Source: Candidatus Amesbacteria bacterium
GTDB lineage: Bacteria > Patescibacteriota > Microgenomatia > CAZETR01 > Amesbacteraceae
Assembly (NCBI GenBank): GCA_027371535.1
Contig: DAHXMV010000008.1
Location: 1 to 48,524 of the forward strand
Length of the DNA: 48,524 bases
Direction of reading: 5' to 3'
The position numbers and the translations under genes are program-made. The notes beneath the pieces were generated by a model. The model was given only the letters and a program-made list of their open reading frames with translations. It made no database searches and had not been told where the DNA came from. Of the stretch, positions 15,277 through 22,001 are shown one piece after another; the first letter of the stretch is position 1, and every line of letters starts with the position of its first letter.

Positions 15277-16074
15277 TTACCTATTCCGCTCAAGAATTGC
15301 ATCCGCCAGATTGTTATACAGCATAATCACCGTCACCGGCCCCACCCCGCCGGGCACCGGAGTAATAAAAGCGGCTTTTTGGGCTACTTCCGGTGCAAAA
15401 TCCCCTTTGGGATATCCCACATCAATTGCCCGCACCCCTTCTTTGACAAATTCCGGTTTGATTAAACCCGTCTGTCCGGTGCAGCTGATCACTACGTCCG
15501 CTTCACTTATCGGTTCGGTCTTAAAATCATATTTATCCATGCCGATTACCAGATGATTAACTTCCAATACCCTTTCCAGCCACCTGCCTACCCGCCCCAT
15601 ATTCCCGATAATTACATATTTTAAATCCATATTCAGATCATGATCCACCCGGCGTCTTAGGATCTCATACACCCCCCGCACTGTCGCCGGCAGCTTTTGG
15701 GATCTGGGGTTTAGGCCGTCCACGTCTTTTTCCGGGTCGATTAACAGACACAGCTTGGTATCCCGCCATCGGTCGCCGAAAAGCGGCGTCTGGATCATTA
15801 TCCCGTCTGCATCGGACTCCTTATTCAGGTTGGATATCAAACCTTCCATATCATTGGTTGAATGTAAGAAATATTCCTTAAACTCCACCCCCAGCTCTGC
15901 TGCCTTTTTGGACTTCATCTTAGTATATATAGCGCTTCCCGGATCATCCGGGTTATAAATCGTTACCAGCTTTGGTTTCCGGCCCAACGATCTGTTTATT
16001 ACCGCCAGTTTCTCCTCCACCTCTTTTTGGATTTGGGCCGCAAACTCTTTTCCGTCAAAAACAACCGCTGCCAT
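15277..16074 (-). CDS. folD: Methylenetetrahydrofolate dehydrogenase/cyclohydrolase
   Basis: 265 residues, slightly short. Conserved YTKMKSKKAAELGV (catalytic Lys region), DGIMIQTPLFG, PEKDVDGLNPRS and the NADP-site C-terminal half with GNMGRVGRWL and TPVPGGVGPVT. Interconverts 5,10-methylene- and 10-formyl-THF. TATAAT followed by exactly six bases precedes the ATG, so leaderless. Lies downstream of glyA in a one-carbon cluster. Confidence 0.95.
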   Translation of the reverse strand: MAAVVFDGKEFAAQIQKEVEEKLAVINRSLGRKPKLVTIYNPDDPGSAIYTKMKSKKAAELGVEFKEYFLHSTNDMEGLISNLNKESDADGIMIQTPLFGDRWRDTKLCLLIDPEKDVDGLNPRSQKLPATVRGVYEILRRRVDHDLNMDLKYVIIGNMGRVGRWLERVLEVNHLVIGMDKYDFKTEPISEADVVISCTGQTGLIKPEFVKEGVRAIDVGYPKGDFAPEVAQKAAFITPVPGGVGPVTVIMLYNNLADAILERNR

Positions 16075-16107: not shown

Positions 16108-17424
16108 TCAGGGTACCGGAAACTTCTCACTCCACATCTTTACCTCACCCCGGATCCTGGTTAACACCTCGTCGGTTTTAACCGCCTCTTTAAATCTCTT
16201 CCTGGCTGCCTGGTCTGTCTCCCGGTCCGGGTTGCCGATATTTTTAAAATCGCCCGCTGTCATCTCCCGGCATCTCTCTATCGCCCCATTCAGCCATTTG
16301 GCGATCCGCTCCATTTCCTTTTCCTTCATCCCCCTGGTCGTCACCGCCGGTGTCCCCAGTCTCAGACCGCTGGGATAATAGGCCGACCTCTTCTCTCCGG
16401 GGATTGTTTGCCTGTTGGCAACGAGCCCCGCCCCTTCCAGCCCCCAGGCCGCCGTCCAGCCGTCAATGCCTTTATTTTCCAAATTAATCCAGATCATGTG
16501 GTTTTGTGTCCCGCCGCCGATTAATTCATAATTCATAATTTTTAAACCCTCCGCCAGCTTCCGGGCATTTAATACTATTTGATTTGCATAAACTTTAAAT
16601 TCCGGGTCGGCCGCCTCATCCAAAGCCATCCCCAAAGCCGCCACATTTTCCATGTGCGGTCCGCCCTGAATTCCCGGGAAGACTGCCTTATTTATCTTAT
16701 TCTCTAATTCCTGATCCTTATTCCTTCCTTTCTCTGTTACCATTATCATCGCCCCCCGCGGCCCTCTCAGCGTTTTATGGGTCGTTGTCATGATCACATC
16801 GACATATGGCACCGGCGACGGATGCGCCCCGCCTGCTACCAGCCCTCCGATGTGGGAGATATCCGCCACGAAATATGCCCCCGTCTTGTCTGCTATGTCC
16901 GCATATTTTTTCCAGTCAAAAATTTTGGTGTAACCGGTACCGCCGGACCAGATGACTTTCGGGTGAAACTTCAGGGCCAGAGCTTCCAATTCCTCCCAGT
17001 CTACCTCTCCCGAACCGGTTAAATGGTAATATTGGGGCCGGCGGTATTCGCTGGTAATACTGGCTTCTTGTCCCATCGACAAATGGCCGCCTGTAGACAA
17101 ATGTTGTGATAGTTGGATATCTTCTTTATTCATTAAGGCTTTGAGAATTGCCAAGTTTGCGGGCGCCCCGGACAAAGGTTGGACATTCACAAACGGCACC
17201 CCAAAAAGTGCCTTGGCTTTTTCCTGAACCAGCCGTTCCAGTTGGTCCACAAACTCATTGCCCTGGTAATATCTTTTTCCCGGATATCCTTCCGCATACT
17301 TATTGGCAAACACACTCCCCATGGCTTCCCTGACCTTTTTACTGGCGTAATTTTCCGACGGGATCAGAGTCAGTGTCTCCGTTTGCCTTTTTTCCTCAAG
17401 CTTTACTAATTCCTCAATTTCCAC
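16108..17424 (-). CDS. glyA: Serine hydroxymethyltransferase
   Basis: About 438 residues from the GTG at 17424. An ATG at 17448 is in frame, but the -10 TATAAT lies inside that extension and points, with six bases spacing, to the GTG; the protein then begins VEIEELVKLEEKRQTETLTLIPSENY, matching the family. PLP lysine in TTTHKTLRGPRG, GYPGKRYYQGNEFVD upstream. Converts serine to glycine while making 5,10-methylene-THF, the donor for the ThyA-family enzyme encoded divergently. A heptamer array encodes KIMNYELIG near 303-311. Confidence 0.96.
   Translation of the reverse strand: MEIEELVKLEEKRQTETLTLIPSENYASKKVREAMGSVFANKYAEGYPGKRYYQGNEFVDQLERLVQEKAKALFGVPFVNVQPLSGAPANLAILKALMNKEDIQLSQHLSTGGHLSMGQEASITSEYRRPQYYHLTGSGEVDWEELEALALKFHPKVIWSGGTGYTKIFDWKKYADIADKTGAYFVADISHIGGLVAGGAHPSPVPYVDVIMTTTHKTLRGPRGAMIMVTEKGRNKDQELENKINKAVFPGIQGGPHMENVAALGMALDEAADPEFKVYANQIVLNARKLAEGLKIMNYELIGGGTQNHMIWINLENKGIDGWTAAWGLEGAGLVANRQTIPGEKRSAYYPSGLRLGTPAVTTRGMKEKEMERIAKWLNGAIERCREMTAGDFKNIGNPDRETDQAARKRFKEAVKTDEVLTRIRGEVKMWSEKFPVP
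16521..16543. repeat. Heptamer array inside glyA
   Basis: Minus-strand AATTATG units, about three copies, period 7, in frame. Confidence 0.65.
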
Positions 17425-17430
17425 TCTTCG

Positions 17431-17436
17431 ATTATA
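17431..17436 (-). promoter_or_regulatory. -10 box of glyA
   Basis: Minus-strand TATAAT, six bases ahead of the GTG at 17424; it lies only 15 bases from the divergent folA -10 box. Confidence 0.6.
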
Positions 17437-17451
17437 CCCTCTTCCCATGTC

Positions 17452-17469: not shown

Positions 17470-17970
17470 ATGGAACTGTCGATCATCGTCGCTGTCGGCC
17501 ACAATAATAAAATCGGGTATGAAGGGCGATTGCCATGGCACCTGAGAACAGATATACGGCACTTCAAGGATATCACTTCAAAACACACTATTATTGCCGG
17601 CCGAAAAACACTTGAATCATTTCAAACTATCCCCTTACCAGACAGAACTAATATTGTAATAACCCGCAATAACAATTTTTCCCATCCCGGTATTCTGGTT
17701 GCCCATTCTTTCGAAGAAGCATTAAGGCTTGTACCGGGAACCGAAAATAAGGCTTATATTGTCGGCGGATTTGGCATATATGCTCAGGCTTTGGCATACG
17801 CCGACAGAATGTATTTTACCGAAGTTGATTATAACGGTCCTGCGGACACTTATTTTCCGAAATTCAATCCTCACGAATGGATAGTCACACCCCAAACCAC
17901 CCCTCCTCAGACAGAAAAGGACGAATACCCTTTTCAGTTTGTTATTTACGACCGAAAAAAAGCTGTATAA
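17470..17970 (+). CDS. folA: Dihydrofolate reductase
   Basis: 166 residues. AVGHNNKIGYEGRLPWHLRTDIRHFKD holds the catalytic acid and the PWH segment, GRKTLES and VGGFGIYAQAL bind NADPH. Regenerates THF from DHF, the by-product of methyl transfer by thymidylate-synthase-type enzymes; it is followed three bases later by the ThyA-family gene, so the two are almost certainly co-expressed. Confidence 0.96.
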   Translation: MELSIIVAVGHNNKIGYEGRLPWHLRTDIRHFKDITSKHTIIAGRKTLESFQTIPLPDRTNIVITRNNNFSHPGILVAHSFEEALRLVPGTENKAYIVGGFGIYAQALAYADRMYFTEVDYNGPADTYFPKFNPHEWIVTPQTTPPQTEKDEYPFQFVIYDRKKAV

Positions 17971-17972
17971 CC

Positions 17973-18938
17973 ATGAACGAATACCTGGATACGGTTGAAT
18001 ACGTCCTCACCTACGGAAAAGTCAAACAAGGCGCCCAAGCAGTTAAAAAAATCAGTACTTTTGAAACACCGAAAATTGTATATAACCTTGAAGAAGGATT
18101 CCCATTAATTACAACCCGTGATATGAGTAAAACTTTAAAAGCCCTTTATGGTGAACTCTTATGGATCATCTCTGGAAGCACTAACGTCAACGATTTACAT
18201 AAATCCGGTATCAGACTCTGGGATCAATGGGCCACTCCGGAAACCAGCGGAAAATTAGGTTTCACAAATGGAAATCTCGGTCCCGTCTATGGCCATGAAT
18301 TGAGAAATTATGGTGGTTCCGATCCCGATGCCCAAATTCAACCATATGGCTATGATCAGTTGTTTTATTCCCGGCCCCCGGGTCTACTTACCAGAATATC
18401 CCAAGCCCTACATCTGTCTAAAAAAGAAGGTCCGCCTCAGATAAAAGGTATTAACCAACTGGATCAGATCATCGGTATGCTAAAAAGATCCCCCGACACC
18501 GGCAGGGCTTTGATTACTTTCTGGAATCCTGGTGATGTAGAGGTAGACGGCCAGGAAAAAGTCTTTATTGCTCCTTGTATCGCCATGTTGCATTTCTTTC
18601 ACCAGGAAGGTGAATTGGGTTTACACATTTTTCAACGCAGCGCGGATTTAGGTGTTGGGGTTCCGTTTGATACCGCTGAAATGGCACTTCTTTTGTCAAT
18701 GGTTGCTCTTGAGTTGAAAATGAAACCCAAAAGATTGATCCACACTCTATCCGATGCCCATATTTATGAGGACCAGGTACCATTTATGAAAGAACTGTTA
18801 AAAAGGAATCCCCGGAGAAAACCTACTATATCTATTTCTGAAACTCCTTCCGGAACCATATATGACCACAAATTAGAGGATTTTCATTTGGAAAATTATG
18901 ATCCTTACCCGCCTATGAAAATTCCCGTCGCAACATAA
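17973..18938 (+). CDS. Thymidylate synthase-family enzyme, predicted dCMP-type
   Basis: 321 residues from the ATG at 17973; an upstream in-frame start would lie inside folA. The fold is clearly ThyA: E61 (E. coli E58) in ELLWIISGSTN, LGPVYG, nucleophile C202 in APCIAM, R222 and D225 in FQRSAD, H263/Y265 in HIYED, C-terminal IPVAT. Three key positions differ. D233 replaces N177 of E. coli, the residue that reads the O4/N3 edge of dUMP; Asp here is the hallmark of dCMP hydroxymethylase and of engineered dCMP-methylating ThyA. I203 replaces H147 after the nucleophile, and L110 replaces the usual Trp in YGxxW. One of the two phosphate arginines from the partner subunit is Gly (DTGR). There is a roughly 30-residue insertion around 120-158. 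Substrate dCMP is an inference; ordinary dUMP activity cannot be excluded. Operon with folA. Confidence 0.85.
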   Translation: MNEYLDTVEYVLTYGKVKQGAQAVKKISTFETPKIVYNLEEGFPLITTRDMSKTLKALYGELLWIISGSTNVNDLHKSGIRLWDQWATPETSGKLGFTNGNLGPVYGHELRNYGGSDPDAQIQPYGYDQLFYSRPPGLLTRISQALHLSKKEGPPQIKGINQLDQIIGMLKRSPDTGRALITFWNPGDVEVDGQEKVFIAPCIAMLHFFHQEGELGLHIFQRSADLGVGVPFDTAEMALLLSMVALELKMKPKRLIHTLSDAHIYEDQVPFMKELLKRNPRRKPTISISETPSGTIYDHKLEDFHLENYDPYPPMKIPVAT

Positions 18939-18943
18939 TTATT

Positions 18944-19393
18944 ATGTCTGAAAAACCTACTCATCAATTTGTTGACCCCAGGTATGCCAAGGGCACCGAC
19001 TATGGTAAAGTCCTGAACCAGATACAAACCGCCGGAGTCTGCCCTTTTTGTCCCGATACATTTAAATGGCACACCAAACCTATTCTCCAACGTACATTAG
19101 GATGGTTAATAACCCGCAATATGAATCCTTACGCCGGCACGCGTGAACATTTCCTGATTGTCGGAAAGAAACATGTCGAAAATATTTTGGACCTGTCCCC
19201 CCGGGACATGACTGCCATTCTGCGTTTAGCCCAGTGGGCAGTGGTGGAATATCAGCTACCGGGAGCTCTTCTGGCTATGCGCTTTGGCGACAAAGAATTC
19301 ACCGGGGCCACAGTCACCCATCTGCACGCACACCTGATAGTACCTGAAAAAATAGACGACCGGGTCACCGTCGTCAATTTCCCTATTGGCTAA
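18944..19393 (+). CDS. HIT-domain protein with CPFC motif
   Basis: 149 residues. CPFC (C33, C36) could join a zinc site; REHFLIVGKKHVENILDLSP and the triad THLHAHLIVP (HxHxH complete) identify a HIT hydrolase/transferase. It follows the ThyA-family gene by five bases and so belongs to the folA transcript. Convergent four-base overlap with the deaminase gene. Substrate unknown; a nucleotide or dinucleotide is likely from the family. Confidence 0.85.
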   Translation: MSEKPTHQFVDPRYAKGTDYGKVLNQIQTAGVCPFCPDTFKWHTKPILQRTLGWLITRNMNPYAGTREHFLIVGKKHVENILDLSPRDMTAILRLAQWAVVEYQLPGALLAMRFGDKEFTGATVTHLHAHLIVPEKIDDRVTVVNFPIG

Positions 19394-20229
19394 TCTTCAA
19401 CCCGGACAATCTCAATCTTAAACGCCCTCATGACCTCATCACTGTTCATCCAGGCCGAACCGGTCTGATAAAAACATTTGTTTATTCCGGAAAAGGCAAT
19501 CAATTTCGTACAGGTTGGACAGGGAAAGACATTTATATATATTTCAGCTCCGGAAAAATCAGTTTTCCCGCCTGCTGCCTCGGCAATGATCAACTGCTCG
19601 GCATGAATGGAAGAATAAAGTTCACTGTGAGTTCCCGCCTGGATCACATCTCTGGGATCACCATCAACATACTGAGTTTGCTCGGCTGGTACATGCCGAT
19701 TATGAGCTTTGGCCAATACCTGTCTGTCTTTTACTACTACAGCTCCCGTATGCCTCCACCAATCAGAACTCATTTCCGCCTCACCCCTTGCCAGATTCAT
19801 AATTTGCCTGTCGAATGGATCGTTACTCACCCGGTCCGGAACCACAATCATAGGTGTAGCGACATCGGATTCCTCCCATCTTAAAAATACATTTTCGAAT
19901 GTGATTTTGTTCAATTTAAAATACCTGTGAACTAATTGTCTGCTTATTTCTTCGCTGGGCAAAACGATATGCTTATTCTCCAACCGGGGTAATTTTTCCT
20001 TATCTAAAATCTCCACCTTGTCAAAAACCCCCAAAGATTCAGCCATCTTGGCAATTATTTCAGGATTAACCGCTCTGATCTCCCGGGGGAATATGGATAG
20101 CTGATTAATAAGACCCTGTCCCAAAACCCACAATTCATCTACTTCACCGCCTAATCTGTTAAACAATTCCAGATATCCTTTATGAATAACTGGTATATAT
20201 GCCACCAGATCTTTATTTTCTGCGCTCAT
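19390..20229 (-). CDS. Cytidine/dCMP deaminase-like protein with N-terminal domain
   Basis: 279 residues. The C-terminal half (about 140-279) is a zinc deaminase: H209-A-E211 and P236-C-P-T-C240 are the ligand and catalytic motifs of the dCMP/cytidine deaminase superfamily. The N-terminal half (about 8-120; YIPVIHKGYLELF, LWVLGQGLI) resembles a nucleotidyltransferase-like Rossmann domain with an HxGY in place of HxGH, but I cannot assign it. The gene overlaps the end of a cytidylyltransferase-like gene by 17 bases and faces the dCMP-type ThyA gene, making dCMP, 5-methyl-dCMP or hydroxymethyl-dCMP plausible substrates (inference). Confidence 0.8.
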   Translation of the reverse strand: MSAENKDLVAYIPVIHKGYLELFNRLGGEVDELWVLGQGLINQLSIFPREIRAVNPEIIAKMAESLGVFDKVEILDKEKLPRLENKHIVLPSEEISRQLVHRYFKLNKITFENVFLRWEESDVATPMIVVPDRVSNDPFDRQIMNLARGEAEMSSDWWRHTGAVVVKDRQVLAKAHNRHVPAEQTQYVDGDPRDVIQAGTHSELYSSIHAEQLIIAEAAGGKTDFSGAEIYINVFPCPTCTKLIAFSGINKCFYQTGSAWMNSDEVMRAFKIEIVRVED

Positions 20230-20776
20230 TTTTGCCTATTTGGTTTATCTGTGCCATATGGCCTTTTATAATTCTTTGCACCAGAAAACTGGTGGAAGTA
20301 TTTTCTGCCTGCCTGGGTAAAATTACCAGCTTATCCACATACTTTTCAATATCTGCCCTTTGTTCGGGTGGATAACTATCTTCAACAGCCACAAATACAT
20401 TTGGTCTGATCATTCTAATTAAACCATATGTCCATAGCCCCTTATCATTAACGTCTCTAATTCCCGTTATAAAATCCACACACCATAAATAGCTCAACAT
20501 CTCAACCCTCTCTTCAAAAGGCACTACAGGTCTGTATTTACCTTTATATTTTCTCACCACCTTATCCGTATCCACCCCCACCACCAGCACATCTCCTGCT
20601 TTTTTCGCTTCCATTAAGTACCTGACATGTCCTATATGCAGCATATCCCAAGTCCCTATCGTAGCCACCACTGATCTATTCAACTCAGAACGAAAAACAT
20701 TCAATATTCTGTGTAGTTTTCTGTAATCATTAATAAATTTTATACTGGATTCTGTTTCCCCGTTAAACAACCCCAT
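20213..20776 (-). CDS. Cytidylyltransferase-like nucleotidyltransferase
   Basis: 187 residues. GTWDMLHIGH at 41-50 is the HxGH signature, followed by AKKAGDVLVVGVDTDK and RPVVPFEERVEML; the C-terminal TSTSFLVQRI matches the ISSTxL motif of TagD/RfaE-like enzymes. Transfers a nucleotidyl group to a phosphorylated alcohol or sugar; substrate unknown. TATAAA lies eight bases before the ATG. Coupled to the deaminase gene by overlap. Confidence 0.85.
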   Translation of the reverse strand: MGLFNGETESSIKFINDYRKLHRILNVFRSELNRSVVATIGTWDMLHIGHVRYLMEAKKAGDVLVVGVDTDKVVRKYKGKYRPVVPFEERVEMLSYLWCVDFITGIRDVNDKGLWTYGLIRMIRPNVFVAVEDSYPPEQRADIEKYVDKLVILPRQAENTSTSFLVQRIIKGHMAQINQIGKNERRK

Positions 20777-20850: not shown

Positions 20851-21390
20851 TTATACCTGTTTTTCCAATTTCTTGGTGACCACCCTCCCGCCTTTCCACT
20901 GTCCTCTGTATTTGTTAGCTTTGCCCTTGATCTCATAAAACAAAATGTGTGCGATTCTGGCTCCCATTTCGATTTTTACATTGGCTTTTCCGCTGTTATA
21001 CAAAGTAAAACTTAACTTCCCTTCATAACCCGGAGCCACATTTCCGCCTGACAAAATTATCCCGCTCCTGTAGAGCGTGCTTCTGGCCCATAAATTAGCT
21101 GTCAGATTAGCAGGTAACTTAACGGATTCTATCGTTGTTACTAACACCTGAAACCCGCTTTTCAGTAAAAATACTCTGGATATTCCATCTTTATATTCCG
21201 ATACCACTTTGGCCTCTGCAGTTTTCCTTTCCTCTATCCCCAAATAAGCTTCACCTGATATTTCATACACTTGGCCCAGTCTAAGATCAAATCCGCATCC
21301 TTCAGGATTAGTCAGCTCCCTGTCGGATAAATCCGTGACCAGATTTTTTTCCTTTACCAGCTTCAGTAATTCATCTACCCCCAAAACCAT
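20851..21390 (-). CDS. dcd: dCTP deaminase/dUTPase family protein
   Basis: 179 residues. Trimeric beta-barrel family: GCGFDLRLGQVYEI, the phosphate motif WARSTLYRSG, and APGYEGKLSFTLYNSG, whose Glu matches the catalytic Glu of dCTP deaminase (PGWEG). Either converts dCTP to dUTP or hydrolyses dUTP; the PGYEG form favours dCTP deaminase. Shares one base (TAATG) with the kinase-like gene ahead, so the two are coupled. Symbol is provisional. Confidence 0.85.
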   Translation of the reverse strand: MVLGVDELLKLVKEKNLVTDLSDRELTNPEGCGFDLRLGQVYEISGEAYLGIEERKTAEAKVVSEYKDGISRVFLLKSGFQVLVTTIESVKLPANLTANLWARSTLYRSGIILSGGNVAPGYEGKLSFTLYNSGKANVKIEMGARIAHILFYEIKGKANKYRGQWKGGRVVTKKLEKQV

Positions 21391-22001
21391 TATTTCTTCA
21401 TCGTCAGTGCTAATTTAACGACCGTCCAGATCCTGCCGGCCACTGTCAGAATCGGGGCGTCCCCGCCTACCCTGATCCACCCGTATTTGTCTGCCATCTG
21501 TAGATATACCTTTCTGGCCCGATACCATTCCTCCTCATCCGACTGGTAAATATGCCCTTCACCCGGCCGCAGGTCCAGCCTTCTGGGCCCGTCAATCAAA
21601 ATTGACACGTCCGCCGGGGTGTAGTCCGAGTTAATTTCTTCCATTCTTTCCAGGGTTATCCCACGGGTAACCCCCCACACCATGCCGGTACCCACATAAT
21701 CCTCGGCCAAAACCGTCACTCCCGAGTCCAGCCATTTTCTTAAGGTAGGCTCAAATTCCAGCCGGTTTTGGGTAAACAGCTTCTGCATCTCTTCTTCCGG
21801 TAGCGGGGGTTCTTTTCTGTACACCAGTTTCTTGATTTTCTTGCCGGATTCCCCCAGCTCTATAATGGGATAAACGACTTTTTTCGTCTGCACCCGTTCT
21901 TCTTTCAGCCTCTCCATCAACAGATCCATCTGTTTGGATTTCCCCACTCCCGAGGGTCCGTAAAACGCAATCAGTAATCCCCTGCCCCACATCGTCGCCA
22001 T
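21390..22001 (-). CDS. tmk: Thymidylate kinase-like P-loop kinase, atypical DRY
   Basis: 203 residues. P-loop GPSGVGKS at 15-22; FTQNRLEF (N79, R80) matches the dTMP-contacting segment of TMP kinases; a lid region lies near 150-165. The usual DRY after the core strand is EDY (E100-D101-Y102), replacing the conserved Arg with Asp and suggesting altered base or phosphate handling. TATAAG with six bases precedes the ATG. Coupled to dcd. It could be a deoxynucleoside monophosphate kinase of different specificity; the symbol is provisional. Confidence 0.75.
   Translation of the reverse strand: MATMWGRGLLIAFYGPSGVGKSKQMDLLMERLKEERVQTKKVVYPIIELGESGKKIKKLVYRKEPPLPEEEMQKLFTQNRLEFEPTLRKWLDSGVTVLAEDYVGTGMVWGVTRGITLERMEEINSDYTPADVSILIDGPRRLDLRPGEGHIYQSDEEEWYRARKVYLQMADKYGWIRVGGDAPILTVAGRIWTVVKLALTMKK

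Follow-up and report, generated by a model that had tools for sequence, protein, structure and literature searches.

The gene at 17973..18938 (+ strand) encodes a 321-aa protein of the thymidylate synthase (TS) family with an Asp at the position that reads the base, which raises the question of whether this enzyme acts on dUMP, as ThyA does, or on dCMP, and of how the cell would then obtain its dTMP. To our knowledge, dTMP synthesis via dUMP, by ThyA or ThyX, is treated as universal in cells. The stretch analysed (the window, 48,524 nucleotides) belongs to a 1.02-Mb CPR-type genome of the Amesbacteria family, assembled in 43 contigs with an estimated completeness of 90.5%, so that about 10% of it is possibly missing. 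In a profile search, the protein matched PF00303 (E 2.2e-70) with 237 bits against a curated cut-off of 24.3, and its AlphaFold2 model, built from a 34-sequence alignment (pLDDT 82.6, pTM 0.83), matched E. coli TS structures in a PDB fold search with a TM of 0.94, normalised by target. The nearest relative is that of Ca. Amesbacteria GW2011_GWC1_47_15 (G003; 53% identity), and the exact lineage with Asp at 177 and Ile at 147 (D177/I147, E. coli numbering) consists of these two genomes, both MAGs and 88-90% complete.

When the protein was aligned with E. coli ThyA, Asp233 (codon at 18669..18671, + strand) fell on the base-reading Asn177, which is also the column of Asp179 of T4 gp42, with no gaps nearby (QRSADLGVGVPFDTAEM aligned to QRSCDVFLGLPFNIASY), confirming the position assigned to it in the preliminary description. 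Chance or misalignment as the origin of Asp233 was ruled out by the gap-free alignment, the fold match and the presence of the same residue in the relative. The nucleophile Cys202 (= C146) is followed by Ile203 in the column of H147 (codons at 18576..18581, + strand), and Leu110 and Ala21 replace W98 and R21, respectively. The substitutions at 147 and 98, already pointed out from the sequence, were thus corroborated, and D177, I147 and L98 are all common to the window TS and G003; the W98 column is, however, relaxed to Phe in N177 relatives as well. Some phosphate-binding Arg residues were also lost (R21 to Ala and one R126 to Gly), at positions that vary in the N177 sister proteins too. Together with the fold, the nucleophile, the folate residues and the C-terminal tail, which are common to canonical ThyAs, the window TS keeps C202, R222, D225, H263 and Y265, as first described, and also E61, W83, W86 and Y106. 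The inserted loop, given at first as about 30 residues, is of about 40 (residues ~118-158; 18324..18446, + strand) and is not part of the trait because it is predicted with low confidence in the model and is absent from the sister D177 protein of G003.

Therefore, the window TS does not carry the N177 and H147 pair of a dUMP-type TS (EC 2.1.1.45) but the Asp177 and non-His147 pair of the TS-family enzymes that act on dCMP. The co-variation of both positions was perfect in a set of 161 distinct TS sequences from the fetched loci, with His147 in all N177 sequences (150/150) and in none of the D177 ones (0/11), nine of which have Pro and two Ile. These were also the top two positions parting the TSs of cytosine-modified phage contigs from ordinary TSs in MetaGPA (PMC8670742). 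The base-reading Asp is shared with T4 gp42, in which the nucleophile is likewise intact, and with MilA and BcmA. Moreover, the identical substitution in the engineered L. casei TS N229D and E. coli TS N177D confers dCMP methylase activity, according to work cited in PMC8670742, whereas the change in the window TS is natural, fixed in its lineage and accompanied by a matching change at 147. Judged from these residues, the substrate of the window TS is probably dCMP, in contrast to the dUMP of ThyA.

The reaction proposed at first was either methylation or hydroxymethylation of dCMP. T4 dCMP hydroxymethylase has an Asp/Glu three residues before the nucleophile, a Ser/Thr two residues before a Tyr, a Val replacing Trp83 and no C-terminal tail (PMC6400193). 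In the window TS, the column of its Asp145 (L143 in E. coli) is taken by Ile199 (codon at 18567..18569, + strand), hydrophobic as in methylating TSs following the rule in PMC6400193, and that of its Ser94 (the 92 column) by Pro104, whereas Trp83 (Trp86 in the window TS) and a full TS tail (YPPMKIPVAT) are retained. Hydride transfer and production of dihydrofolate are therefore expected, which fits the presence of folA, encoding dihydrofolate reductase, directly upstream (17470..17970, + strand; PF00186 E 6.6e-51), whose stop is separated by 2 bases from the TS start. The argument for methylation that the preliminary description had drawn from this gene holds for the window, but no folA was found within 10 kb of the TS gene of G003. 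A dCMP hydroxymethylase in place of a methylase, to which this lack of a nearby folA and the Asp177 common to T4 gp42 would lend some support, is very improbable given the missing acidic residue before the Cys, the missing Ser/Thr and the conserved Trp83 and tail.

Regarding the sugar, the study of MilA assigned Ala and Lys to the ribonucleotide type and Ser and Arg to the deoxyribonucleotide type. In the columns of Ala176 and Lys133 of the CMP hydroxymethylases MilA and BcmA the window TS has Ser223 and Arg178, so that D233, S223 and R178 make up a set of determinants for cytosine plus deoxyribose. Neither the dCMP hydroxymethylase nor the ribo-CMP signature was thus found in this protein, and of the two activities first proposed, dCMP specificity and methylation were supported by the sequence and hydroxymethylation was not. 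Provided that dCMP is the substrate, its methylation is highly probable.

The genes around the TS encode further candidate steps of dTMP synthesis. The TS gene is followed by that of a HIT-domain protein (18944..19393, + strand; PF01230 E 2.8e-6), whose position is kept in the N177 sister clusters, and then, on the - strand, by a dCMP-deaminase-like zinc deaminase (HAE...PCPTC) with an N-terminal extension of ~130 aa (19390..20229; PF00383 E 1.6e-15), an overlapping nucleotidyltransferase-like gene (20213..20776; PF01467 E 8.5e-14, and synteny), a Dcd/dUTPase-fold protein (20851..21390; PF22769 and active-site alignment) and a thymidylate-kinase-like (TMK-like) gene (21390..22001; PF02223 E 6.9e-9). 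On the other side, divergent from folA, lie glyA, for the serine hydroxymethyltransferase that supplies methylene-THF (16108..17448, - strand; NF000586 E 2.4e-139), and folD, for methylene-THF dehydrogenase/cyclohydrolase (15277..16074, - strand; NF010789 E 1.6e-39, under the cut-off).

The zinc deaminase shows the HxE and PCxxC zinc motifs and the similarity to DCTD expected of a dCMP deaminase, and its best matches were phage dCMP deaminases (PHROG E 1e-19) and solved dCMP deaminases in the PDB. Characterised dCMP deaminases (DCTDs) accept 5-methyl-dCMP (PMC12088426), and the window enzyme is predicted to carry out the step from 5-methyl-dCMP to dTMP. At the position of T4 Y153, close to the methyl group, the two D177 genomes and the N177 genome G172 encode Ser, and four enzymes of the CPR family f9 have Tyr. 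The G003 deaminase is weakly similar to that of the window (24%). The structure model of the window deaminase was of low confidence (pLDDT 56.8) and was left out of the evidence.

The Dcd-fold protein has a Thr in the column of the catalytic Glu138 of dCTP deaminases, and therefore deamination of dCTP is not expected; it is predicted to be a dUTPase or dCTPase. A search for Dcd in G003 gave no match at all. Glu-bearing Dcd proteins were found with nine of 15 N177 and none of seven D177 ThyA-type genes (Fisher p = 0.017), an association that is only suggestive, as the entries compared are related, the Glu was scored as absent from two N-type genomes without inspecting them, and several N177 genomes lack it as well. 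In N177 genomes, similar proteins with Ala or Gly occur alongside a true Dcd, so the Thr, Ala and Gly proteins may form a dUTPase or dCTPase subgroup.

The window genome yielded a single PF00303 match, a single PF00383 deaminase and a single Dcd-fold gene, and neither ThyX nor a deaminase-competent (Glu-bearing) Dcd was found in it. E. coli queries for thymidine kinase and for uracil-DNA glycosylase had no match in 1,016,642 of its 1,024,189 bases (99%), although distant salvage enzymes could escape the former search, and no second zinc-deaminase motif was present in the same bases. A B12-dependent ribonucleotide reductase (RNR) was found. The cell therefore makes deoxyribonucleotides, and no other source of thymidylate is visible in an assembly that may miss about 10% of the genome. 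A second canonical thyA or a thyX, which according to the preliminary description would have spoken against its reading if this gene were inactive, was thus looked for in the genome and none was found.

Two alternatives depend on this genomic context. In the first, the window TS would be a decaying protein or one without catalytic activity, and the strain would rely on uptake of thymidine or dTMP. Several members of the family seem to do without both ThyA and ThyX, and R21, one R126 and W98 are lost, but both D177 genomes retain C202, E61, R222, D225, H263 and Y265, the ORF and the cluster are intact and an RNR is present, which makes inactivity quite improbable. In the second, 5-methyl-dCMP would be made for DNA, as in phage Xp12, with thymidine coming from salvage or from an unseen enzyme. 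The closest characterised D177 systems are in fact phage DNA-modification enzymes; nevertheless, thymidine kinase, ThyX and a second TS were not found in the window genome, the deaminase would undo the product, and we know of no cell in which cytosine is replaced throughout the genome. This second alternative is improbable too. The single TS, the dCMP-deaminase-like neighbour and the lack of a Glu-bearing Dcd point instead to synthesis of dTMP via 5-methyl-dCMP and, if dCMP is indeed methylated, it is very likely that the product is used in this way.

As a separate observation within the same family, loci L152-L157 (G002, G005 and G011) contain ORFs of 484-601 aa with two tandem ThyX matches, apparently fused double ThyX proteins.

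With slightly better than even probability, then, the window TS is a dCMP 5-methyltransferase derived from an ordinary TS, and the neighbouring deaminase turns 5-methyl-dCMP into dTMP. In such a route, Cys202 would attack C6 of dCMP while Asp233 would read and protonate N3 and hold the 4-amino group; the one-carbon unit would come from methylene-THF, and hydride transfer would give 5-methyl-dCMP and dihydrofolate, the latter being recycled by the folA and glyA products. The zinc deaminase would then convert 5-methyl-dCMP into dTMP, to be phosphorylated by the TMK-like protein. Compared with the classical pathway to dTMP, the two steps would thus be swapped, with methylation before deamination, as in phage Xp12.

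The origin of the gene was approached with a maximum-likelihood tree of 69 TS sequences, in which the window TS grouped with that of G003 (100/98) and this pair was sister (100/99) to the N177 ThyAs of family f9. The f9 genomes keep N177 and H147 and have the same cluster as the window, thyA-HIT facing deaminase-nucleotidyltransferase. Therefore, it was the residues governing specificity that changed, within a cluster that remained the same. The ancestral deaminase presumably supplied dUMP, and would follow the methylation step once the TS was of the dCMP type. A phage origin was also considered and discarded: the DNA pattern for GVGVPFDTA was unmatched in viral contigs, only one distant viral relative was found, and no phage protein match exceeded 36% identity, the best of those checked being of the N177 type.

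The shared cluster bears on the main alternative, a window TS that still uses dUMP, with Asp233 perhaps protonated and reading uracil in a pocket remodelled by Ile203, and with the deaminase making dUMP first. The presence of the deaminase fits both orders of reaction because it was inherited from a cluster in which it must feed dUMP to an N177 ThyA; the window gene is also the sole TS of the cell, and the RNR together with the Dcd/dUTPase-fold protein could still supply dUMP. However, in the characterised enzymes cited (T4 gp42, MilA and the engineered TSs), an Asp in this column selects for cytosine, H147 is changed in 11 of 11 D177 sequences, and no natural Asp177 TS using dUMP was found in open-licence literature. 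Use of dUMP is hence unlikely, though far from negligible.

Asp177 was also found in a second group of cellular enzymes. In five CPR genomes from four families (G009, G030, G082, G267 and G292; loci L147, L254, L256, L257 and L258), the ThyA-type gene detected encodes a D177/P147/N143/F83 TS. These TSs form a well-conserved clade with ~60% identity among its members, and no ThyX was found in any of the five genomes. At the Glu138 column, the Dcd-fold proteins of these genomes have Pro, except for one additional copy with Gly. In the tree this clade groups with phage enzymes, from Mesyanzhinovviridae and others, and two separate D177 groups are needed, so the window TS does not belong to it. 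The phages Tedan, Mallos, ZQG1, PaMx28 and DoCa10 (L268, L269, L270, L347 and L349) carry cassettes in which a D177 TS, annotated just as thymidylate synthase, adjoins a dCMP deaminase, like in the window; a DHFR is annotated in several of these cassettes and a pyrophosphohydrolase or HAD gene lies upstream in some.

The DoCa10 TS has the D177/P147/N143/F83 signature and, as DoCa10 and Xp12 belong to one genus, Bosavirus, the Xp12 TS is inferred to be of the D177/P147 type. All cytosine is replaced by 5-methylcytosine in Xp12, for which a dCMP methyltransferase is known, and its deaminase converts 5-methyl-dCTP into dTTP. 'A new thymidylate biosynthesis' (Kuo, 1982) reportedly describes the Xp12-infected cell. 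Methylation followed by deamination is thus the logic predicted for the window too, although Xp12 deaminates the triphosphate and replaces cytosine in its DNA, whereas the window TS is the sole one of a cell with no sign of DNA modification. That dCMP methylation followed by deamination supplies all thymidylate in at least two separate CPR lineages, bypassing dUMP, is a tentative proposal to which we give somewhat less than an even chance.

The chemistry and the order of steps are therefore already known in Xp12; what would be new is their role as the sole cellular route to dTMP, of which no case was found in open-licence literature. If true, a third way for cells to make dTMP would join ThyA and ThyX, an oddity described in a phage in 1982 would enter cellular metabolism, and the route would have arisen by substitutions at two linked positions within a fixed gene cluster. 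It would also leave dUMP off the main path, in a genome where the search for uracil-DNA glycosylase was negative. In annotation, profile searches label all of these proteins as thymidylate synthase, and it is positions 177 and 147 that tell them apart.

A few other proteins of the CPR genomes are worth recording. A TS-fold protein of ~357 aa adjoins the D177 TS in G030, G082 and G267 (L254:2120-3211, - strand; L256:6181-7251, - strand; L257:9401-10471, + strand), with no Cys in the nucleophile column (VPVYQNYQ) and an Asp near the 177 column; the G009 and G292 clusters have a deaminase in its place. Some D177 clusters encode a RibD-C/DHFR-like protein and not a typical folA (L034:8389-8913, L254:3838-4371). 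Finally, CPR proteins of 500-590 aa were detected at L164:2840-4372 (- strand) and L158:2802-4412 (- strand), and in the former a divergent TS domain, which has Asn at 177, lies between an MtrA-like N-terminal part and a C-terminal PterinBD-DUF4346 part.
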